A stretch of 52,927 nucleotides of DNA from Dehalococcoidia bacterium (GTDB taxonomy: Bacteria; Chloroflexota; Dehalococcoidia; UBA2979), in assembly GCA_009692705.1 (NCBI GenBank), contig SHYR01000006.1, positions 1 through 52,927 of the forward strand, written 5' to 3'. Below the pieces are notes generated by a model that saw only the letters and a program-made list of their open reading frames with translations, did not search any database and was not told the origin of the DNA. Positions within the stretch are counted from its first letter, which is position 1; every line of letters begins with the position of its first letter. A program made the position numbers and the translations under genes. Positions 4,387-52,927 of the stretch are shown here, piece after piece.

Positions 4387-5883
4387 GTGAGCGAACGGCG
4401 ACCCGGGCCGCGGTTGCGCGTGAGCCGCGGCCACCGCGCCGGGGACCTGCGCGTGATTCGACGCCGCGGCCCCCGCCGCGGCCTCGAGCGCGTGCTGGGC
4501 GTCGCCGGGGTCTTCTCTGCCTCCTACGGCAACGTCGGCTCGTCGATCTACTACGGACTCGGCGTGACCGCGCTCTACGCGCTGGGGCTGACGCCGCTGG
4601 TGTTCGTGATCTCTGGCCTGTTCTTCCTCTGCACCGCCCTCACCTATGCCGAGGGCTCAGCGGCGATGCCCGAGGCGGGTGGCGCGGCGTCATTCTCCAG
4701 GCGGGCCTTCGGGCAAGGCTTCTCGTTCATGGTCGGCTGGGCGCAGATCCTCAACTACCTGATCACGATCTCGATTTCAGCGTTCACCGTCCCGAACTAC
4801 CTCTCGGTCTTCTGGCCGTTGCTGAAGAGTTGGCCGGCGAACGCGATCGGCGGCGTTGGCGTCGTGCTGGCGCTTGGCACTCTGAACATCGTGGGCGCGC
4901 GCGAGTCAAGCCGGCTGAACATCGCGCTGGCGCTGATCGACCTCGCGACGCAGGCGCTGCTGGTCGTGATCGGACTGGCGCTGGTGTTCAACCTCGACCT
5001 GTTGCGGGCCGGAATTCACCTCGGCATCGCACCGACGTGGGACCGCCTGCTGCTGGGGATCGCGATCTCGATGATCGCCTACACGGGCATCGAGACCGCA
5101 TCGAACCTTTCGGAGGAGACGCGGAACGCTACGCGCGCCGTGCCGCGTGGCATCCTCACCACGTTCGTGGCCGTGCTGGTGATGTACACGCTGATCCCGC
5201 TGGTTGCGCTTTCGGCGATGCCGGTGCAGTTGGTCGACGGCGTCTACCAGACGCGCCTGGCCACTGAGTTCATCGAGGACCCGGTGCTGGGCGTCGTGCG
5301 CGAGCTCGGGTTCGTGGGGGTGACGAGCCGCGTCGTCGAGGCGTGGGTCGGCATCCTCGCCGCGACGATTTTGGCGCTCGCGACGAACGCCGGGATGCTG
5401 GGGATGTCGCGCCTCACCTACTCGATGAGCCGACATGGACAGCTCCCCGCGGCGGTCGGGGCGCTGCACCCCCGGCGCCGCACGCCCGTCACCGCGATCG
5501 TGCTCACGGTGATCCTCGCTTCAGCGGTGATCGTGCCGGGGAAGATCACGCTGCTCGCCAGCCTCTACGCCTTCGGCGCCATGCTCTCGTTCACCTTCGC
5601 GCACGCCTCCATCATCCGTCTGCGGGTGTCCGAGCCCGAGCTCGAGCGGCCCTTCCACATCCCCTGGAACTGGCGGCTGCGCGGGCGGCAGATCCCGGTC
5701 CCGGCGTTGATCGGCGGGGGCGCGACGCTCTTCTCGTGGTTCGTGGTGGTGCTCACACAGCCCACGGCGTGGATCATCGGCTTCCCGTGGCTCGGCGCCG
5801 GCCTGCTGTACTACCTCTGGCGGCGGCGCCGAGGCGAGGTCGACGACCCGCGCACGCGGCCGGACTCCGCGAGCACCGGCTAG
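4387..5883 (+). CDS. APC-superfamily amino acid/organocation permease
   Basis: This 498-residue, very hydrophobic protein has about 12 predicted membrane segments. A basic N-terminal tail precedes the first helix, which carries the broken-helix motif SYGNVGSSIYYGLG typical of APC transporters. Helix 3 shows PEAGGAASFSRRAFG, and a later loop has YTGIETASNLSEETRNATRAVPRGI, the usual APC 'E-x-A-x-N-x-EE' region. It probably imports an amino acid or similar cation, but the substrate cannot be read from sequence. It starts with GTG 40 nt after the PBP stop, with a weak ribosome site, so it may be in the same operon. Its TAG stop shares a GCTAGC palindrome with the convergent downstream gene (4-nt overlap). 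Confidence 0.88.
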   Translation: MSERRPGPRLRVSRGHRAGDLRVIRRRGPRRGLERVLGVAGVFSASYGNVGSSIYYGLGVTALYALGLTPLVFVISGLFFLCTALTYAEGSAAMPEAGGAASFSRRAFGQGFSFMVGWAQILNYLITISISAFTVPNYLSVFWPLLKSWPANAIGGVGVVLALGTLNIVGARESSRLNIALALIDLATQALLVVIGLALVFNLDLLRAGIHLGIAPTWDRLLLGIAISMIAYTGIETASNLSEETRNATRAVPRGILTTFVAVLVMYTLIPLVALSAMPVQLVDGVYQTRLATEFIEDPVLGVVRELGFVGVTSRVVEAWVGILAATILALATNAGMLGMSRLTYSMSRHGQLPAAVGALHPRRRTPVTAIVLTVILASAVIVPGKITLLASLYAFGAMLSFTFAHASIIRLRVSEPELERPFHIPWNWRLRGRQIPVPALIGGGATLFSWFVVVLTQPTAWIIGFPWLGAGLLYYLWRRRRGEVDDPRTRPDSASTG

Positions 5884-7007
5884 CGCGACGCCAGCGCCTC
5901 CACCTCGGCGCGGCTCGTCGTCCCGCGCACCGCCGCCAGGAACTGCGCAAGCGAGCTGGCGCGCTCGCGCAGCCCGCGCAGCTGCCCGCCCAGCGGGTCC
6001 ACGGCGTCGGAGCGCGCGGCATAGCTGCCGAACCACGCGAAGTAGGCCTGGTTGAGGCGCCGGATGTGCACGCCGCCGCGCTCCAGCTCCTGCCGCACCT
6101 GCTCCATGCGCGCCTCGGCGTCCGCCACGCGGTCCGCCGCCAGCAGCGCGTCGACCTCCAGGCGCAGCTCGCGCAGCACGCGGTCGCGATCGATGCCCGG
6201 CGGCGCGGTCGGTGGCGTGGCGGCTGGCGCGGCGCGCGCCGTGGGGTCGCCGAAGCGTTCGATCACCCTTCGCGCAATTTCCTCGCCGGCGAGGTCGGCC
6301 ACCGTCTCGTTGATCGTGAGCCGCGCGCCGTGCGGCTGGCCGAACCCCAGCGGGTAGAACGCGAGGTAGTGGTGCACCCACTCGTGCGCGGCCGTCTGCA
6401 CCGTCTGCGCGTAGCCCGAGCGGTTGCTCACCACCGCCGGGTACATCGAGAACCCGCCGGTGCCCACCACCAGCGCCGAGCGCGGCGGGTCGTCCGCCTC
6501 CGTGCGCGCCTCGAGCGCGACCGCCACCGCCGCGGGCACGTCGGCGCGCAGCAGCTCAATACGCACCAGCGCGATGCGCGCGCGGGGCGACACCGCGAGC
6601 ACCAGCGGCGAGCCGGCCAGCTCGATGTCCACCGGCGGCCACACCGCGAGCGGGCCCCCCGGCGCGAGCCGGCCGCGCACGCCCCGCTCGCGCAGCACGG
6701 CGTCGATGCGCCCCGCGATCGCCGCCTCGACGACGCCTTCGAGGCGCTGCCCCTCGGGCGACTCGCGGTCGGCGAGCGCGAAGTAGCGCGCGATCGCGGC
6801 GTCGGGGTCCGGGTCGGAACGCAACGGGGCGCCGAGCACGAAGAGCCACTTCCCCGCGACCGTGGAAAGCTCCCAGCGCACCGGGTCGAAGCGTATGCCC
6901 GCGTCGCGCCGGGCGAACAGCCCTGCCCACAGCGCGGAGGCGAGCAGGAACACGGCCGCGAGCACCAGCGGCGTGGAGTGGCGGGCGGCGCGCGCGCGCG
7001 ATCGCAT
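5880..7007 (-). CDS. Membrane-anchored zincin-like putative metallopeptidase
   Basis: One N-terminal membrane segment (about 12-33) suggests an extracytoplasmic, anchored enzyme. The C-terminal half has the zinc motif HEWVHHYL (HExxH, about residues 208-212) and, about 25 residues on, NETVADLAGEE, whose Glu is a plausible third ligand of a gluzincin. The middle part has no family I recognise. I chose ATG 7007 because TACCGT ends 6 nt before it, fitting the leaderless pattern here. The ORF track starts two codons earlier, at 7013, directly abutting that box. It is divergent from the RDD gene and ends convergently inside the permease stop. Substrate is unknown and peptidase activity is inferred. 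Confidence 0.65.
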   Translation of the reverse strand: MRSRARAARHSTPLVLAAVFLLASALWAGLFARRDAGIRFDPVRWELSTVAGKWLFVLGAPLRSDPDPDAAIARYFALADRESPEGQRLEGVVEAAIAGRIDAVLRERGVRGRLAPGGPLAVWPPVDIELAGSPLVLAVSPRARIALVRIELLRADVPAAVAVALEARTEADDPPRSALVVGTGGFSMYPAVVSNRSGYAQTVQTAAHEWVHHYLAFYPLGFGQPHGARLTINETVADLAGEEIARRVIERFGDPTARAAPAATPPTAPPGIDRDRVLRELRLEVDALLAADRVADAEARMEQVRQELERGGVHIRRLNQAYFAWFGSYAARSDAVDPLGGQLRGLRERASSLAQFLAAVRGTTSRAEVEALASR

Positions 7008-7013
7008 GCGCAT

Positions 7014-7019
7014 ACGGTA
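7014..7019 (-). promoter_or_regulatory. -10 box, leaderless start of the zincin-like gene
   Basis: TACCGT is followed by 6 nt and then ATG (7007). Confidence 0.4.
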
Positions 7020-7060
7020 GCGCCGCGACGCTCACGGCGGACGCTGGCATCGACGCTGCT

Positions 7061-7066
7061 TATAGT
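7061..7066 (+). promoter_or_regulatory. -10 box, leaderless start of the RDD gene
   Basis: TATAGT is followed by GGGCGG and then GTG at 7073, placing the predicted transcription start on the first base of the start codon. No -35 is evident. Confidence 0.5.
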
Positions 7067-7072
7067 GGGCGG

Positions 7073-7627
7073 GTGACCACAACGGTCCCGCTGAGCGACC
7101 CGCCAGACCGCGCCGGCGTGACCCGCCGGCGGCGCCTGCTGGCGCCCGCGATCGACGCCGCGATCGGGCTGCTGGCGCTCACCGCTGGACTCGTGGTGGC
7201 GGCGGTGTGGCTGCTCTGGCGCACCGACGCCGGCCGGCTCGACGCCCGCACAGGCGACGCGGTCGCCGCCGCCGCCGCGATCGGCGCCACGATCCCGACC
7301 TGGGCCGCGTGGCTCGCGCTGCGCACGGTGCGCGACCGCGCGACGCCGGGCCAGCGGCTTGCCGGGCTCGTCGTCGTCGAGCGCCGCCGGGGCCACCGCG
7401 CGGCGCTGCTGAGGCTCGCCGTGCACCCGCTCGCGATGCCGTTCTGGGGCTGGCTCGCGCTCACCGCGCTGCAAAGCGGCGTGCCCTGGCTGTGGCTGCC
7501 CCCGGCGCTGCTCGCCGCCGCGGTCGCCGCAGGCGGCGCGATCTCGCTGGCGGGCCTGCTCGCCGCGCCGCGTCGCCCCGCGATCCACGACCTGCTCGCG
7601 CGCACCACGCTCGCCTCGCGCCGGTGA
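7073..7627 (+). CDS. RDD-family integral membrane protein
   Basis: The protein has 184 residues and about four membrane helices. RDD features are the early Arg/Asp helix (LLAPAIDAAIGL), the cytosolic loop TPGQRLAGLVVVERR, and the C-terminal RRPAIHDLLARTTL, whose Asp closes the R-D-D pattern. RDD proteins are poorly characterised; some are linked to ion transport. The GTG start lies 6 nt after a TATAGT box, implying a leaderless transcript. The stop overlaps the next start by GTGA, so the next membrane protein is co-translated and may be a partner. Confidence 0.78.
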   Translation: MTTTVPLSDPPDRAGVTRRRRLLAPAIDAAIGLLALTAGLVVAAVWLLWRTDAGRLDARTGDAVAAAAAIGATIPTWAAWLALRTVRDRATPGQRLAGLVVVERRRGHRAALLRLAVHPLAMPFWGWLALTALQSGVPWLWLPPALLAAAVAAGGAISLAGLLAAPRRPAIHDLLARTTLASRR

Positions 7628-43644: not shown

Positions 43645-44937
43645 CTAGCCTCCGCCCGCGGTCGCGGCGACGAGGTCGCGCTCGCGGCCCCAGCGCTCGG
43701 CGGCGCGGATCTCGTCGGCGGCCCGCCGCATCATCAGCAGGAAGAGCACCGCCCCGACCGCGGTCATGATGCTCGAGTAGCGAAAGACGTTCGCGATCCC
43801 GATCTCGGACACCACCGTGGCACCGATGAGCGAGCCGACGAGGAACCCGAGCGAGCTCGCCATCTGGTTGATGCCCATGATCGAGCCCATGCCGACGGAG
43901 CGCCCCACGGTGACGAAGATCGCGCTCTGCGCCGGCACCATCACCGCCTCGGCGGCGCCGATCGCGAGGTAGAGCGCCAGCAGCGACGGCAGGATCACCA
44001 CGCCATCGCCGAGCAGCGACACGCTCACCAATTGGCCCGGCACCGCAGGGATGAAGAACTGGCCGAGCGCCGAGAGCAGCAGACCGGCCACCACCAGCGT
44101 GATGCGGCTCATGCGGTCGGCAAACCGTCCGAACATTGGCTGCAAGACCGCGCTCGTGAGCGCGCGTGCCCCCAGCAACAAGCCGACGAAGGTGGCGCTG
44201 CCGGTGCCGAGGCCGTCGGCGCTGACGATGTAGACCGCCAGAAAGGCTCCGGAGGCCGAGAACGCCAGCGCAGTGACCGCGGTCACCGCGATCGCCGCCT
44301 GCACAAAGCGCCGCCGCAGCAGCTCGCTCCACGGCAGCGGCTCTACGTCCTCGTCCTCGACGTCCGCGAGCGCACCGCGGCGTCGCGGGTTGGCCGGCAA
44401 CGCGAGCAGGACGAACAACGCGGTGCATCCCAGCAGCAGCCCCATCGCGGCGAAGGCGACGTTCGAGCTGAAGAGGTCGCGCAAAGTACCGCCCAACAGC
44501 GGCCCGATCCCGAAGCCGGCGATCTGCGCCATCGCGAACGCGCCCATGTACGCGCCCTCGCGCCCGTTCGGCGCCAACCGGCCAACGTAGGCCATGCTCA
44601 TCGGGAAGACCATCGACACGCCGAGGCCGGAGAGCATGCGGAACGCGACCACCTCCTGCCAGCTGCCGGAGAACAGGTAGCCGAACCCCGCCACGGAGTA
44701 GACGACGAATCCGCCGACGATGAAGCGCTTCACGCCGTAGCGGTCGCCGAGCCGCCCCACGAACGGCGAGGCCACGAGCATCGCCACCGCGATCCCGGAG
44801 AAGGAGAGCGCGACCGCCGCCTCCGACCCGTGCAGCTCGTCGCGCACGTAGACCGGCAGCAACGGCGCCACCATGCCGATGCCGCACATGGCGACCAACA
44901 TCGCGATCCACAGGACCACGAATCCACGCGAGAGCAT
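43645..44937 (-). CDS. MFS transporter
   Basis: About 430 residues with 12 membrane helices. The start is ATG 44937 (LSRGFVVLWIAMLVAMCGIGMVAPLLPVYV) with AGGGG upstream. The MFS loop motif is ASPFVGRLGDRYGVKRFIVGG, and the second-half equivalent is LQPMFGRFADRMSRITLVVAG. The cytoplasmic middle loop is acidic (DVEDEDVEPLPW). The overall pattern is that of the MFS_1 drug/metabolite exporters. Cargo unknown. TAGAGT and related boxes in 44941-45115 could be its promoter. Confidence 0.87.
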   Translation of the reverse strand: MLSRGFVVLWIAMLVAMCGIGMVAPLLPVYVRDELHGSEAAVALSFSGIAVAMLVASPFVGRLGDRYGVKRFIVGGFVVYSVAGFGYLFSGSWQEVVAFRMLSGLGVSMVFPMSMAYVGRLAPNGREGAYMGAFAMAQIAGFGIGPLLGGTLRDLFSSNVAFAAMGLLLGCTALFVLLALPANPRRRGALADVEDEDVEPLPWSELLRRRFVQAAIAVTAVTALAFSASGAFLAVYIVSADGLGTGSATFVGLLLGARALTSAVLQPMFGRFADRMSRITLVVAGLLLSALGQFFIPAVPGQLVSVSLLGDGVVILPSLLALYLAIGAAEAVMVPAQSAIFVTVGRSVGMGSIMGINQMASSLGFLVGSLIGATVVSEIGIANVFRYSSIMTAVGAVLFLLMMRRAADEIRAAERWGRERDLVAATAGGG

Positions 44938-45103
44938 CACGAGCCCCTTGACTGAACACGGGACGCGGCGTCTCGGCGCGCCGTTCGAGCGCCCGCCGCC
45001 GCGCCCGCTCTACTCTACGGGACCGCTACACTACCGGACGGGGCGGGGGCGCGGGACCGCCCGGCTGCGCCGGCGCGGACACGGCCGGCCAGCGGCGTCG
45101 GGC

Positions 45104-45109
45104 TACACT
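45104..45109 (+). promoter_or_regulatory. -10 box, leaderless start of the globin-fusion gene
   Basis: TACACT, TCACGC, then ATG at 45116. Confidence 0.5.
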
Positions 45110-45115
45110 TCACGC

Positions 45116-45829
45116 ATGGTCGATCACACCCACGAAGCGTCGGGACTGGGGCTCTGCGGCGGCTGCCGCTGGGCGGGCATGGTCGTCAGCGGCAAGGGAT
45201 CGCGCTTCCTGCGTTGCGGGCGCTCCGACGCGGACGAGAGCTTCGCGCGCTACCCGCCGCTGCCCGTCACCGCCTGCCGTGGCTTCGAGGCACCGGCCGC
45301 GCCACGCCGCACCGCGAGGCGGCCCGCCAGCTCCGTGCTCGACGGCGCAGTCCCCGACGACGAGCTGATCACGTTCGTCGAAACGCCACCTCCGCCCGGG
45401 GGCGGTCCGCGCGCGGGCGGACCGACGCTGTTCGAGCGCGCCGGCGGCCGCGCAGCCGTTGAGCGCATCGTCGAGCGCTTCTACGACCGCATCGAGCGCG
45501 ACCCCGAGTTGCGACCGCTCTTCCCCGCCGACCTGGCCGCCGGGCTGGAGAAGCAGCGCCTCTTCCTCGAGCAGTGGCTGGGCGGCGAGGAGCGTTACTC
45601 GCAGCGCTACGGGCACCCGCGGCTGCGGCGGCGCCACTTCCCGTTCGTGATCTCGGAGCGCGCCGCCGGGCGCTGGCTGCGCCACATGGCGGAGGCGCTG
45701 CGCGAGGCCGGCGTGCCCGAGGACGCGCGCGCCGAGATGCTCGCCGGGCTGAGGCCGCTCGCGCATCACATGGTGAACGAAGGGCAGGACGTGCCGCGCG
45801 CGCCGCTGGATAGCGAACGCCTCGACTAG
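45116..45829 (+). CDS. Fusion of a four-Cys domain with a group II truncated haemoglobin
   Basis: A 237-residue protein. The N-terminal 60 residues carry four Cys: LCGGCRWAGMVVSGKGSRFLRCGRSDADESFARYPPLPVTACRGFE. I recall this as a small stand-alone family in several phyla; it may bind metal. A linker follows, then a truncated globin (about 112-225): LFERAGGRAAVERIVERFYDRIERDPELRPLFP, LEKQRLFLEQWLGGEERYSQRYGHPRLRRRHFPF. The proximal His is in RRRHFPF. It probably binds O2 or NO in the cytoplasm. ATG 45116 lies 6 nt after TACACT, and the ORF-track extension upstream is not real. It ends in a 4-nt convergent overlap with ubiE/menG. Confidence 0.85.
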   Translation: MVDHTHEASGLGLCGGCRWAGMVVSGKGSRFLRCGRSDADESFARYPPLPVTACRGFEAPAAPRRTARRPASSVLDGAVPDDELITFVETPPPPGGGPRAGGPTLFERAGGRAAVERIVERFYDRIERDPELRPLFPADLAAGLEKQRLFLEQWLGGEERYSQRYGHPRLRRRHFPFVISERAAGRWLRHMAEALREAGVPEDARAEMLAGLRPLAHHMVNEGQDVPRAPLDSERLD

Positions 45830-46785: not shown

Positions 46786-47808
46786 ATGCCGTTGCGCCTG
46801 CTGCCCTGGGCCCCCGAGTACGGCACCTCGATGCAGTTCGACGCCGACGAGGCCGCCGAGGCCACCGGCGCCGTCGATGCCACGGTCGAGCGCGCGCAGT
46901 GGGCCCCGGTCGACCCGGCGGGCGAGCCGCCGCACGCGCTACAGGTGGTCGACGGCGTGCGGCGCGCGGAGGCGCACGCGATGGACGACGACGCGAACGG
47001 CGAGCCGCTGTGCGGGCTGTTCGGCTCCTTCGCCGTCGGCGTGGTGCGCTGCGAGGACGGCCACGCCTCGATCCCGGAGCCGCAGCTGCGCGTCGAACGT
47101 CGCTACCTGCAGGCCGGCGGCGACCCGCGTCACCGCGAGGTTCCGGCCGGCGACGCCACGCTGCTGTTCCGCGCCGAGGTGCCGGAGGGCGCCCGCAGCG
47201 CCAACGCGCTCGTCGATGCGCTCAACCGCGCGATGCTCGACGAGGAGGCGAAGCTCGCCGAGGAGCTGTCGCGCGACGCCGCCACGCTCACGTTCGTGGA
47301 CGGTCCGCTGCGCACGCTGCGCGCGCCGGGCCAGCACGTGGTCGGCTACGTGAAGCGCATCCACAACTGGTACCTCGACGCCGAGCAGCTGCGCATCCTG
47401 CCGCGGCTGGCGGTGGGGCAGCGCACGCCGCTCTTCCGCATCACCAGCCACGACGGCCGCGAGCGCTACTCGTGGTACCTGCGGCTCGCGGACCTCGGCG
47501 ACCGCTACCACACCCTCGGTGGCGTGATGCGGCTGGAGGCGCCGGGCGCGCAGCCGCCGCACGCGGCGGTCGTGCTGGCGGACCAGTCGACGCTGGCGCT
47601 GCCGCGGCTCGCCTCCTCACCGGTGCGCGACCCGCGTGCGCCGCAGAACCTCACGCCGGTGGGCGCGCTGGAGCGGGTGCTCACGCACCGGCTCGGCGAC
47701 CGCCGCTGGCTGCGCCGGCTGCTCGCGGCCGCCGTCGGCGAGGGCGCCGACGCGGTCGCCGCGGCCTCGGCACTGGTGCACGCGAATGCGAAAGGTGGCG
47801 CGGCATGA
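46786..47808 (+). CDS. nurA: NurA-domain 5'-3' nuclease
   Basis: The 340-residue protein starts at ATG 46786 with GGAAG upstream. ALQVVDGVRRAEAHAM matches the first NurA metal-binding motif (DG-x-R), and CGLFGSFAVGVVR follows. A later acidic/His set includes HNWYLDAEQLRILPRLAVGQRTPLF and SWYLRLAD. NurA is a Mn-dependent nuclease that works with the HerA pump to resect DNA ends. It overlaps herA by ATGA, so the partners are co-translated. The 45880 and 46659 ORF-track entries covering it are extended or shadow frames. Confidence 0.87.
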   Translation: MPLRLLPWAPEYGTSMQFDADEAAEATGAVDATVERAQWAPVDPAGEPPHALQVVDGVRRAEAHAMDDDANGEPLCGLFGSFAVGVVRCEDGHASIPEPQLRVERRYLQAGGDPRHREVPAGDATLLFRAEVPEGARSANALVDALNRAMLDEEAKLAEELSRDAATLTFVDGPLRTLRAPGQHVVGYVKRIHNWYLDAEQLRILPRLAVGQRTPLFRITSHDGRERYSWYLRLADLGDRYHTLGGVMRLEAPGAQPPHAAVVLADQSTLALPRLASSPVRDPRAPQNLTPVGALERVLTHRLGDRRWLRRLLAAAVGEGADAVAAASALVHANAKGGAA

Positions 47809-49556
47809 CCGCTGCCGGCTCCCCCGGCTCCGCCAACGGCAGGCACGAGGCGGCCACGGCGACCGCCGACCAGCGCGCCGGGCTCGTGCTCGGCACGGAG
47901 CGCGAGGCCTCCACGCCGCTCGGCTTCTGGGTCTACGTCGACCCCGACCGCTACCTCCAGCTCGACGACGTCGTGCATGTACAGACCCCGCTACCGGACG
48001 GGCAGCTCGTCGATCTCTACGGCGTGGTGGACGAAGTGCGCGCACACCAGGAGGGCGTGAGCTTCACCTCCGACGTCGCGCTCGCCGTCGAGGGCGTGCT
48101 GCCGGTGCAGTCGGTGGTCTCCGCGCACGTCGCGGTGACGCGCGTGGAGCCCGAGATCTACGTGCCGCCGCTGCCCGGCCTGCCGGTCGCCATCGCCACC
48201 GGCGCGGTGCGCGAAACGGCGCTCTTCGCCGACCGCATGAAGCGGCAGCTCGCCTTCGGGCTCTCGCGCACGCTCGAGCCGGTGATCGGCAACCTCGATT
48301 TCCTCGACGGCACCAGCGGCGCGCACGTCAGCATCTCCGGCATCTCCGGCGTGGCGACCAAGACCTCGTACGCGACCTTCCTGCTCTACTCTCTGTTCGA
48401 GGGCAAGGCGCTGGGCGCGCGCGCGGCGAACGCGAAGGCCGTGATCTTCAACGTCAAGGGCGAGGACCTGCTGTTCCTCGACCAACCGAGCACCGAGCTC
48501 GACGACGGCGAGCGCGCCAAGTACGAGCGCCTCGGCCTGCCCGCGCGGCCGTTCGCCTCGGTCGCCTTCTTCGCCCCGGTGCGCCGCGGGCCGCACGCGC
48601 TGCCGGAGACCGGCACGCGGCAGGAGGGCGTCACCGGCTTCTTCTGGACGCTGCGCGAGTTCTGCGAGCGCGGCTACCTCCGCTACCTCTTCGCCGACGC
48701 CGACCCGGAGCTCTCGCAACTCACCTACGTCGTGGACTCCGTGGCGGCGCAACTGGCGAAGGCGGTGGCGGACCCCGGCCATCCTCGCGGGCCGAACGTC
48801 CTGATCGGCGGACGGCTGCGCCGCAACTTCGACGAGCTGATCAACGCGATCGAGGAGCAGACCGACCCCGACAAGGGCGGCGACTGGGCAGGGCACGGCA
48901 ACAGCGCCGCCACCCTCGGCACGATCCGCGCCTTCATGCGCCGGCTGCGCGCGGCCGGACAGCACGTCGGGCACCTGCTGCGAGGCGACGAGTTCGAGCA
49001 CCCGGACGAGCACCGCGTGGACCTCGCGCGCAAGCAGGTGACGGTGGTCGACCTGCACCGCCTGCACGACCGCGCGCAGCGCTTCGTCGTCGGTGTGCTG
49101 CTCAGCAACCTGATGGAGGAGCGCGAGGCGCAGGGCGGCGCCGATCGCCCGCCTCCGGTCTTCATCGTCGTCGACGAGCTGAACAAGTACGCCCCGCGCG
49201 ACGGGCACAGCCCGATCAAGGACGTGCTGCTGGACATCGCGGAGCGCGGGCGCTCGCTGGGGCTGATCCTGATCGGCGCGCAGCAGACCGCCAGCGAGGT
49301 GGAGCCGCGCGTGGTCTCCAACAGCGCCTTCCGCGTCGTCGGCCGCCTCGACGCCGCCGAGGCGCAGCGCAGCGAGTACCGCTTCCTCACGCCGCAAGCG
49401 CGCGAGCGCGCGCGGCTGCTCAAGCAGGGCTGGATGATCATGTACCAGCCGGAGCTGCCGGTGCCGCTGCTGCTGCAGTTCCCGCGCCCAGCCTGGGCGA
49501 CCAGGCCCTCCGAGGTGGAGGCCACCGCCGACGCCTTCGCCCGCTTCGACCGCTGA
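47805..49556 (+). CDS. herA: HerA-like hexameric DNA translocase ATPase
   Basis: A 583-residue protein. An N-terminal HAS-barrel-like beta domain (about 25-140) precedes the FtsK/HerA RecA core. Walker A is the variant SISGISGVATKTSYATFLL (GxxGxxxKT, about 178-187) rather than GxxGxGKS. Walker B is PPVFIVVDELNKYAP near 450. Then come a sensor block, LGLILIGAQQTASEVEPRVVSNSAFRVVGRLDAAEAQ, and a C-terminal brace. HerA threads DNA for NurA during end resection. Start ATG 47805 overlaps the nurA stop. A large minus-strand ORF across this gene is a GC-bias shadow. Confidence 0.87.
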   Translation: MTAAGSPGSANGRHEAATATADQRAGLVLGTEREASTPLGFWVYVDPDRYLQLDDVVHVQTPLPDGQLVDLYGVVDEVRAHQEGVSFTSDVALAVEGVLPVQSVVSAHVAVTRVEPEIYVPPLPGLPVAIATGAVRETALFADRMKRQLAFGLSRTLEPVIGNLDFLDGTSGAHVSISGISGVATKTSYATFLLYSLFEGKALGARAANAKAVIFNVKGEDLLFLDQPSTELDDGERAKYERLGLPARPFASVAFFAPVRRGPHALPETGTRQEGVTGFFWTLREFCERGYLRYLFADADPELSQLTYVVDSVAAQLAKAVADPGHPRGPNVLIGGRLRRNFDELINAIEEQTDPDKGGDWAGHGNSAATLGTIRAFMRRLRAAGQHVGHLLRGDEFEHPDEHRVDLARKQVTVVDLHRLHDRAQRFVVGVLLSNLMEEREAQGGADRPPPVFIVVDELNKYAPRDGHSPIKDVLLDIAERGRSLGLILIGAQQTASEVEPRVVSNSAFRVVGRLDAAEAQRSEYRFLTPQARERARLLKQGWMIMYQPELPVPLLLQFPRPAWATRPSEVEATADAFARFDR

Positions 49557-49578
49557 CTCTCCGGGAAGGACGACCGAC

Positions 49579-49965
49579 ATGACAACCAATTCCGCACTTA
49601 CTCCACCTGAACTCGCAGACATGTACGCACCGGTGATGGATCGCGACTGGTGCTCTGACGGGGAAGGGAAGACCAACCTTTGTGCGCAGATCGGGCTTGA
49701 GTTCCTGCCAGACGACGCTGGCGACCGAGTACTCCTGCACCTACTGCGGACGTTACCGCCAGTGATGCGCTGGACAGTGGAGGCACGCACCGGTGTGTGG
49801 CGTGGCCGGAGTCCAACGCGAGCCGAGCAGAGGTTCACCTCAATCGCCGAGGACATACCCGGGCTAGCCGCTTCCGACGTTGAAGTGCTGTACGACGCGG
49901 GGCTGATTCTCCTGCGAGCAGAAACCGCAGCTACCGGCGTGCGCTTCGCGCAGCACGCGAACTAG
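49579..49965 (+). CDS. Hypothetical protein inserted in the DNA-end-processing operon
   Basis: This 128-residue protein starts at ATG 49579 behind GGAAGGACGACC. It is visibly poorer in G+C and uses codons unlike the flanking genes (for example ACA ACC AAT TCC GCA CTT ACT). The sequence MTTNSALTPPELADMYAPVMDRDWCSDGEGKTNLCAQIGLEFLPDDAGDRVLLHLLRTLPPVMRWTVEARTG shows no domain I recognise. No signal or membrane helix. It fills the gap between herA and sbcD and would be co-transcribed. Likely acquired by transfer. Confidence 0.65.
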   Translation: MTTNSALTPPELADMYAPVMDRDWCSDGEGKTNLCAQIGLEFLPDDAGDRVLLHLLRTLPPVMRWTVEARTGVWRGRSPTRAEQRFTSIAEDIPGLAASDVEVLYDAGLILLRAETAATGVRFAQHAN

Positions 49966-49982
49966 GCGACCGGTAGACGGCG

Positions 49983-51161
49983 ATGCGCTTCCTGCACACC
50001 GCCGACTGGCACCTCGGCCGCACGATGCGCGGGCGCAGCCGCGCCGCCGAGTTCGAGGCCGTGTTCGCGGAGCTGGCCGCGATCGTGCGCGCCGAGCGCA
50101 TCGACGTGATGCTGGTGTGCGGCGACATCTGGGACACCGCCTCGCCGGCGCCGGAGTCGGACCGCCTGCTGTATGAGGCGCTGCGCGAGTTCATCGGCCT
50201 CCGCGTGCAGGTGGTGCTGATCGCCGGCAACCACGACAGCCCGCGCAAGCTGGAGGCGCTGGGGCGGCTCTCCGACCTGCTCGGCGTCTACACACAGCCC
50301 TACGTGAAGCGCCCCGACGGCGGCGGCGTGCTCCCGCTGCGCGCCGGCGAGGAGGTCGCGAGCATCGCCGCGATCCCGTGGATCCCGGAGGGCCGCCTGA
50401 TCGATGCCGAGGAGGTGCTGGGGCCGGAGGCCGAACGCCACCAGCAGTACGCCGACCGCGCCGCCGCGATCTACCGCGCGAGCTGCGCGGGGCTGACGCC
50501 GGAGACGATCAACATCGTCGCCGGGCACCTCTTCGTGGACGGCGCGCGGCTCGCCGCCACCGATCGCTCGGAGCGGCTGCTGCACATCGGCCGCGCCTAC
50601 GGGGTGAACGCCGCCGCCCTGCCCTCGACGCCGCAGTACATCGCGCTCGGGCACATCCACCGCCCGCAGCCGCTCGCCGCCGTCGCCGCGCCCGCGGCCT
50701 ACTCCGGCTCGCTGCTCCAGCTCGACTTCGGCGAGCTCGGCCAGCAGAAGAGCGTGCGCATCGTCGACGCGCACCCCGGCCGCCCGGTCGAGCAGCGCGA
50801 GCTGCTGCTGAGCGCCGGCCGCCCGCTCGTCGAGTTGCGGGGCAGCCTCGACGCCGTGCTGGCGCGCGCGCAGGAGGTCGCAGGCGCCTACGTGCGGGTG
50901 CGCCTGGAGATGGAGCGGCCGGAGCCCGGGCTGGCGCAGCGCGTGCGCGACGCGATCCCGCTCGCGGTGGAGGTGCGGCTGGAGTTCGCGGCGGCCCCTG
51001 AGCAGGCGCCGGGATCGCAGCTCGCGCACCTCAGCCCGGCGGAGCTATTCGCTCGCTACTACCGCTCGCAGCACGGCGCGGAACCGGCGCCGGAGTTGCT
51101 GGTGCTGTTCGCCAGGCTGTTCGAAGAGGCGACGCGCCTCGAGACCGGGGCGATCGCGTGA
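49983..51161 (+). CDS. sbcD: Exonuclease subunit SbcD (Mre11-like)
   Basis: A 392-residue calcineurin-fold nuclease with all metal motifs: MRFLHTADWHLGRTM (D-x-H), MLVCGDIWDTASP (GD), VVLIAGNHDSPRKL (GNHD), VAGHLFVDG (GH) and YIALGHIHRPQ (GHxH). After about 280 is the C-terminal capping domain. It resects and opens hairpin or protein-blocked DNA ends with the SbcC ATPase. It starts 17 nt after the inserted hypothetical gene. Its end contains one copy of a 14-bp tandem duplication shared with the sbcC start. Confidence 0.93.
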   Translation: MRFLHTADWHLGRTMRGRSRAAEFEAVFAELAAIVRAERIDVMLVCGDIWDTASPAPESDRLLYEALREFIGLRVQVVLIAGNHDSPRKLEALGRLSDLLGVYTQPYVKRPDGGGVLPLRAGEEVASIAAIPWIPEGRLIDAEEVLGPEAERHQQYADRAAAIYRASCAGLTPETINIVAGHLFVDGARLAATDRSERLLHIGRAYGVNAAALPSTPQYIALGHIHRPQPLAAVAAPAAYSGSLLQLDFGELGQQKSVRIVDAHPGRPVEQRELLLSAGRPLVELRGSLDAVLARAQEVAGAYVRVRLEMERPEPGLAQRVRDAIPLAVEVRLEFAAAPEQAPGSQLAHLSPAELFARYYRSQHGAEPAPELLVLFARLFEEATRLETGAIA

Positions 51162-51176
51162 AGGCGATCGCGTGAA
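51149..51176. repeat. 14-bp tandem duplication at the sbcD/sbcC junction
   Basis: GGCGATCGCGTGAA occurs twice in direct contact. The first copy holds the sbcD TGA, the second the sbcC GTG. With one copy the genes would overlap by GTGA. Confidence 0.75.
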
Positions 51177-52927
51177 ACCGCTGCGCCTCGAGCTGCGGGG
51201 GTTCACCGCCTTCCGCGAGACCGCGGTCGTGGAGTTCGGCGCGCGGCGGCTGTTCGTGATTACCGGCCCGACCGGCGCCGGCAAGTCCTCGCTGCTGGAT
51301 GCGATCACGTGGGCGCTCTACGGGCAGGTGCCGCGCGTGGGCACGGCCACGCTCCAGTTGATCACCCACGGCGAACGCTCAATGGCGGTGCGCTTCGACT
51401 TCACCGCGCGCGGCGAGACCTACCGCGTGAGCCGCCACGCGCCCGCCACCACCGGCACACGCCTCGAGCGGCTGACGGCGGACGGCGCGTGGACACCTGT
51501 CAGCGACCGCGCGCGCGACGTCACCGCGCAGGTGACCCAGATCCTCGGCCTCGACTACCAGACCTTCACGCGCACGATCGTGCTGCCCCAGGGCGCCTTC
51601 GATTCCTTCCTGCGCGGCGACGAGAAGGGGCGGCGCGCGATCCTCAGCCGCCTGCTCGGCCTCGATACCTACGAGGCGGTGCGACGCGCGGCGCAAGCCC
51701 GCGCGAAGCACGACGCGGAGCTGGGTGACGCGCTCAACCAGCTCATGGCCCGGCTCACGCTCGCCGCGCCCGGCACGCTGCAGCAGCTCGAGCGCGAGTG
51801 CGGGCAACTGGAGACGAGCGCCGCCGCGTTCGCCGCCCGCCGCCAGTCGTTGGCCGCGCTGCGCACGCTCGCCCGCGCAGCCGAGGAGGCGCAGCGCGCG
51901 CTCGATGCCACCAGCACGGCCGTCGCCGACGCGGCGTCCGGGCTGGCGACGGCGGAGCACGCCGGCGCGCAGTCCGCGGCAGCGCTCGCGGACACGCAGC
52001 AGCGACGCCACGCCCTCGCCGCCGAGCGCACCCGCCTCGACTACGACGTCGGGCAGCACCAGCGGCTGCGCGAACGGGTAGCGACATTGCGGCGCCGCGA
52101 CGCCGCGCGCACCGCGGCCGCCGCGGCGGTGCAAGCCCTCGCGGAGGCGGATACTGGCCAGCGCCGCGCGCTCGACGTGGTGCAGCGCCGGCACGCGCAG
52201 CGCTCGGCCGCCGCCACCGCGCTCGCAGACGCCGAGCGTGCGCTGGCGGCGGCCGCCGCTGGCGCGGAAGCCGTGGCGCGGCGGCTGCGGCGCGAAGCGG
52301 AGGAGGCGGAATCCGCGCGCGAGGCCGCCATCACCGCGGCGGCCGCCGGCGACCGCCGCGCGCAGGCGCTGCAGTCGCTCGCGACCCGGGCCGAGGAGGC
52401 GGCGCGCCAGCAGGTCGCGACGCAACAGACCGCGGCGAAGGCGCGCCGTGCCCTCGCCACCGCCGAGCGAGCGCACGCAGCCACCGTGCGCGCGCTGCAC
52501 GACGCGGAGGCCACGCTCGTCGCCCGGCGCGAGGCGCTCGACGCCGCGCGCGTGCGCGACGCCGCGGCGGCACTGCGCCACGTGCTCAAGCCCGGCGACC
52601 CCTGCCCCGTCTGCGGCGAGCCGCTGCTCCGCATCCCGCCCGCCGTCGCGGTCGACATCGACGAGGCGAGCGCGGCGTGCCAGCACGCGGAGCGCGATGC
52701 CGCCGCCGCGCGCGCGCAGCAGGCGGAGAGCAGCACGCGGCTCGTGCGCACCACCGCCTCGGCGGAGCACGCGCAGGACGCGCTCGACGCCGCGATCGTC
52801 CGGCTGACGGAGATCGACGCCGCGGTCGCCGCCCAGCGCGTCGAGCGCGCGCAGCTCGCCGCCGCAGTCGCAGTCGCGACCGCCGAGGCCGCTGCCGCGC
52901 GGCACGCCGCCACCGCGCAGCAGCGCG
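51172..52927 (+). CDS. sbcC: Exonuclease subunit SbcC (Rad50-like), partial (3' end off window)
   Basis: Missing from the ORF track because no stop is reached. GTG 51172 opens MKPLRLELRGFTAFRETAVVEFG, then Walker A FVITGPTGAGKSSLLDAITWALYG (about 30-40) and IVLPQGAFDSFLRGDEKGRRAILSRLLGLD. A long Ala/Arg/Glu coiled coil follows. The zinc hook CPVCGEPLL is at about 478-481 (DPCPVCGEP). The returning coil and the C-terminal ABC half are beyond the edge. SbcC is the SMC-like ATPase that drives SbcD. About 585 codons are visible of a usual 900-1050. Confidence 0.93.
   Translation, partial: MKPLRLELRGFTAFRETAVVEFGARRLFVITGPTGAGKSSLLDAITWALYGQVPRVGTATLQLITHGERSMAVRFDFTARGETYRVSRHAPATTGTRLERLTADGAWTPVSDRARDVTAQVTQILGLDYQTFTRTIVLPQGAFDSFLRGDEKGRRAILSRLLGLDTYEAVRRAAQARAKHDAELGDALNQLMARLTLAAPGTLQQLERECGQLETSAAAFAARRQSLAALRTLARAAEEAQRALDATSTAVADAASGLATAEHAGAQSAAALADTQQRRHALAAERTRLDYDVGQHQRLRERVATLRRRDAARTAAAAAVQALAEADTGQRRALDVVQRRHAQRSAAATALADAERALAAAAAGAEAVARRLRREAEEAESAREAAITAAAAGDRRAQALQSLATRAEEAARQQVATQQTAAKARRALATAERAHAATVRALHDAEATLVARREALDAARVRDAAAALRHVLKPGDPCPVCGEPLLRIPPAVAVDIDEASAACQHAERDAAAARAQQAESSTRLVRTTASAEHAQDALDAAIVRLTEIDAAVAAQRVERAQLAAAVAVATAEAAAARHAATAQQR

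Follow-up and report, generated by a model that had tools for sequence, protein, structure and literature searches.

Genes and features of the locus

The last part of the window, by which we mean the whole 52,927 nucleotide stretch analysed, carries the genes nurA, herA, x, sbcD and sbcC. The whole stretch corresponds to contig C12 of a MAG (1.18 Mb, 77% complete) whose closest named matches are MAGs labelled Dehalococcoidia, Chloroflexi or Thermoflexus, which puts the genome in Chloroflexota. An earlier note on this DNA had described nurA-herA-x-sbcD-sbcC as a single run with a 4-nt overlap of the first two genes, and both points hold: all genes lie on the forward strand between 46786 and 52927, and an ATGA at 47805..47808 (+), read directly from the sequence, is common to both genes as the nurA stop and the herA start (gap -4). 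A scan for promoter- or terminator-like sites between the operon genes, which has little power at 73% GC, detected none, and so gave no sign of the independent sbcDC transcription that the earlier note had named as an objection. The close spacing would suit a single polycistronic transcript. Nearby, 5' of a ubiE-type methyltransferase and of the repair operon, a frame of at most 318 amino acids (44873-45829), its start codon uncertain, has a truncated globin (PF01152) as its C-terminal portion.

The nurA gene (46786..47808, + strand) encodes a 340 amino acid protein predicted to be an RNase H-like 5'-3' nuclease. It matches PF09376 in the Pfam search with 25.2 bits against a cut-off of 21 bits, and resembles NurA of Deinococcus radiodurans (7f6d_H, E 1.5e-29) and the Thermotoga maritima protein 1zup (E 7e-8). 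Residues D56, E154 and D172 are invariant among the aligned relatives and are compatible with the family's acidic active site.

The herA gene (47805..49556, + strand) encodes a protein of 583 amino acids, predicted to act as a hexameric ATPase that translocates dsDNA and to be of the Deinococcus HerA type. No Pfam model matches it in the Pfam search; the similarity to D. radiodurans HerA (7f6d_B, E 2.9e-134, 452 bits) extends over residues 23-573. The alignment places a Walker A motif at GVATKT (K186) and a Walker B motif at DELNK (D457/E458), with K186, D457 and E458 invariant; residue roles are taken from PMC9960219. Homology of HerA over its full length, including the K/T of Walker A and the D/E of Walker B, and an adjoining NurA-domain partner with acidic catalytic residues assign the pair, by sequence, to the Deinococcus-type HerA-NurA group.

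The sbcD gene (49983..51161, + strand), the bacterial Mre11 gene, encodes 392 amino acids with a metallophosphoesterase domain (PF00149) and an SbcD_C domain (PF12320), both above the Pfam cut-off; TIGR00619 is matched with 160 bits, also above cut-off. Similarity is highest to Escherichia coli SbcD (E 6.7e-30), followed by the T. maritima protein (5e-15) and archaeal Mre11 (3e-11). The sbcC gene (51172..52927, + strand), the bacterial Rad50 gene, is represented by its first 585 amino acids, as the window stops inside it. Searching the genome with the bacterial model TIGR00618, which SbcC matches, located a second sbcC piece at C32:734-1360. The end of C12 and the start of C32 overlap by 80 identical bases, and joining the two contigs yields a frame for a 1015 amino acid SbcC ending at C32:1372, with the Walker A motif GPTGAGKSS, the CxxC zinc hook (CPVC, residues 478-481) and the LSGGE signature (919). 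With this frame full, no part of the operon is missing, and sbcC closes the series of resection genes; a frame that appears from its translation to be 2-hydroxyacid-dehydrogenase-like comes after it on C32.

Between herA and sbcD lies gene x (49579..49965, + strand), a putative coding gene with 128 open codons and a plausible ribosome-binding site, whose 128 amino acid product is an orphan. Its GC content is 62% and its GC3 67%, against a GC3 of 93-97% in the adjoining genes. No match was found in 60 relatives, nor in plasmids, phages or viral contigs; the sole match among 400 phylum genomes (20 bits, one genome) and a PHROG match (E 0.007) are weak, and the structure model (pLDDT 56) has a low-confidence fold too poor to use. 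In the same-genus relative x is missing, and at its junction herA and sbcD overlap by 1 nt (TAGTG). The gene is best read as a probably recent, lineage-specific acquisition inserted between two coupled genes. A role of x as a conserved fifth component was ruled out, since no relative retains it.

Linkage of the four genes in the family and in other phyla

In a search of 60 relatives the same HerA was found in 33 of 35 family members, the two without it being 76% and 67% complete. Where a family locus is long enough for the order to be judged, it is almost always nurA-herA-sbcD-sbcC; nurA and herA mostly overlap by 4 nt, the herA-sbcD junction mostly ranges from -4 to +40 nt, and sbcD and sbcC often overlap. 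When 200 other Chloroflexota genomes were sampled evenly, a full Deinococcus-type HerA (match below E 1e-70) was present in only 11, so that the module is patchy in the phylum and near-universal in the family.

A scan of GTDB species confirmed 542 stretches at E <= 1e-3, and the best 80 of these were analysed. HerA is 52-65% identical in these best 80 loci, which come from Chloroflexota, Actinomycetota (Micromonosporaceae, Acidimicrobiia, Nitriliruptorales), MAGs labelled Gemmatimonadota or Acidobacteriota, and others, with the reservation that MAG titles may be mislabelled. The order herA-sbcD-sbcC-nurA is found in 45 of the best 80 and nurA-herA-sbcD-sbcC in 12. All four genes are present in 46 of the 53 named loci among them with enough flank, mostly as herA-sbcD-sbcC-nurA in Actinomycetota. 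The loci of Micromonospora, Actinoplanes, Catellatospora and Acidimicrobiia share the four genes with the window (HerA 52-58% identical) and differ from it in having nurA last instead of first and no gene x.

Since it returns throughout the family and at named loci from other phyla, the arrangement is not a product of chance; a gene order unique to this contig, which the earlier note had considered as an objection, is ruled out by this survey of relatives. The same survey contradicts the view that the cluster is peculiar to one lineage, since other phyla carry it, as does Oceanithermus profundus according to PMC5448004. There the layout nurA-hepA(herA)-sbcD-sbcC is the same bacterial one, with a herA homologue and sbcD and sbcC downstream by the paper's description, and its authors proposed an archaeal-like repair system; O. 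profundus belongs to another phylum, and the passage on this locus does not mention an orphan separating herA from sbcD. With a layout widespread in bacteria and already published in one of them, the window's operon is a further good example of a known system rather than a novel one.

The description of the resection genes as co-directional, tightly packed and co-inherited is borne out by spacing and linkage. Across 79 loci the pairwise distances of HerA, NurA and SbcD are concordant (Mantel r 0.88-0.92, permutation maxima 0.13-0.18), and since this is also expected from common species history it speaks for co-inheritance and not for contact. A distance of about 2 kb lies between herA and sbcD in genus g10 (L036 4648-6740; L037 5500-7600), and further genes interrupt the cluster at some actinobacterial loci; the four genes are thus more consistently linked than co-transcribed, co-transcription not being universal.

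The split in g10 would also suit a cluster of neighbours without a common pathway, in which SbcCD deals with hairpins and HerA-NurA serves a separate purpose such as chromosome segregation or transfer. So would Thermus, where, according to PMC5448004, nurA-herA is surrounded by metabolic genes with no relation to it and sbcDC is not adjacent. Linkage in different phyla, in two gene orders and with tight or overlapping junctions, argues instead for joint function, and we consider independent roles unlikely.

Three further loci deserve description. In L036, of genus g10, a 591 amino acid frame on the opposite strand lies between herA and sbcD. L034 (G058) carries at 5524-7191 a HerA relative with 30% identity to the window HerA, nurA and sbcD being undetected in 12 kb. 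On contig C11 (locus L032, 1-3432), which is binned with the window in genome G000, there is a second, diverged nurA-herA-sbcD cluster whose sbcD runs off the contig end. The C11 HerA is 44% identical to the window HerA and 80% to that of genus g9; the tetranucleotide distance of C11 is 0.10 to the window versus 0.25 to g9, a composition in keeping with the window's genome. Other C11 genes are closest to several genera, and the contamination estimate of the MAG is 2.97%. This cluster may be either a second copy or contamination, for example from genus g9.

AddAB-type nucleases and RecJ

PF12705, a model which detects the RecB-family nuclease domain in 12 of 14 control genomes, gave no match in the window's genome (a 77%-complete MAG) nor in the same-genus relative. 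Among 35 family members, nine have a strong match (E <= 1e-30) alongside the operon, nine have weak matches only and 17 have none; all 11 HerA carriers of the wider phylum have a match of some strength. The absence of AddAB/RecBCD, suggested by the earlier note as a check, is thus seen in the window's genus, where the domain is undetected, and does not extend to the 9 of 35 family members that combine an AddAB-type nuclease with the operon. Loss of AddAB as a rule was ruled out, as it is frequent in the family and neither required nor general elsewhere.

RecJ was likewise not found in the window's genome. As 30 of 35 family relatives have RecJ and the MAG is 77% complete, this absence proves little, and it was rejected as a finding.

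Proposed role in end processing and bacterial character of the proteins

Four genes, ATPase and nuclease signatures, tight spacing, conserved linkage and concordant divergence are what is seen directly. From these we read the operon, with a probability of roughly 0.8, as a housekeeping one that processes double-strand DNA ends, SbcCD acting before HerA-NurA and x not being a conserved component. SbcC-SbcD would bind a broken, blocked or hairpin end, cut it endonucleolytically and so clear it, as SbcCD does in E. coli. A HerA hexamer would load next and pump the duplex towards a NurA dimer and into it; this dimer would separate the strands and degrade the 5' one, so that a 3' tail remains for RecA. 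This HerA6-NurA2 mechanism is known from the structure and assays of the D. radiodurans proteins (PMC9960219), and we infer by analogy that it may operate in the window's bacterium. The gene linkage suggests that a hand-off or physical contact between SbcCD and HerA-NurA may take place in this bacterium.

The D. radiodurans HerA and NurA (7f6d; PMC9960219) belong to the same families as those of the window, and nurA and herA are treated as one operon; authors from that body of work left a connection with SbcCD open (PMC4663267). As nurA and herA were reported to add little to radiation resistance in that species (PMC4663267), some bacteria may use them mainly for something other than resection.

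HerA-type ATPases paired with nucleases also act in phage defence (PMC11291478), and the cluster could be imagined as an anti-phage system with HerA and nuclease partners as in HerA-DUF4297/Sir2-type systems. In PADLOC, HerA and SbcC weakly matched models of defence systems. HerA scores 19.1 bits against the 800-bit cut-off of the NCBIfam anti-phage HerA, its top match is the Deinococcus repair HerA, and the six adjoining window proteins have no defence matches. The cluster is moreover near-universal in the family and co-diverging, whereas defence genes are patchy. A defence function is therefore very improbable, and DNA end processing remains our preferred reading.

Sulfolobus and Pyrococcus have the order herA-mre11-rad50-nurA, of which the window's order is a permutation and to which the actinobacterial herA-sbcD-sbcC-nurA corresponds. 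This correspondence, together with four functions identical to those of the archaeal cluster, would be accounted for by movement of the whole cluster from archaea. SbcD and SbcC, however, score highest with bacterial SbcCD, and HerA reaches 452 bits with Deinococcus HerA versus 12-17 bits with the NCBIfam repair-type HerA models, which makes such a transfer improbable. The Sulfolobus operon, co-transcribed in S. acidocaldarius (PMC2288612) and with genes essential in S. islandicus (PMC4351679), likewise gathers all four functions in one cluster; it has archaeal Mre11/Rad50 and an archaeal-type HerA, where the window has bacterial SbcCD and a Deinococcus-type HerA. The term archaeal-style, used in the earlier note, is apt for gene content and logic and not for the proteins, as SbcD, SbcC, HerA and NurA all have bacterial best matches. 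With SbcD and SbcC of bacterial type, it describes content and logic and not a demonstrated ancestry.

Both PMC9960219 and PMC4663267 describe HerA-NurA as restricted to a few bacteria. What the present analysis adds to these papers is breadth, the four genes being linked in other bacterial phyla, beyond those few. The named Micromonospora and Actinoplanes strains allow a genetic test of the coupling between SbcCD and HerA-NurA. Tentatively, HerA-NurA-SbcCD may represent a widespread bacterial end-resection module working as one pathway, and a main resection engine in lineages without AddAB/RecBCD such as the window's genus. If true, this would be contrary to the published view of a system confined to a few bacteria.
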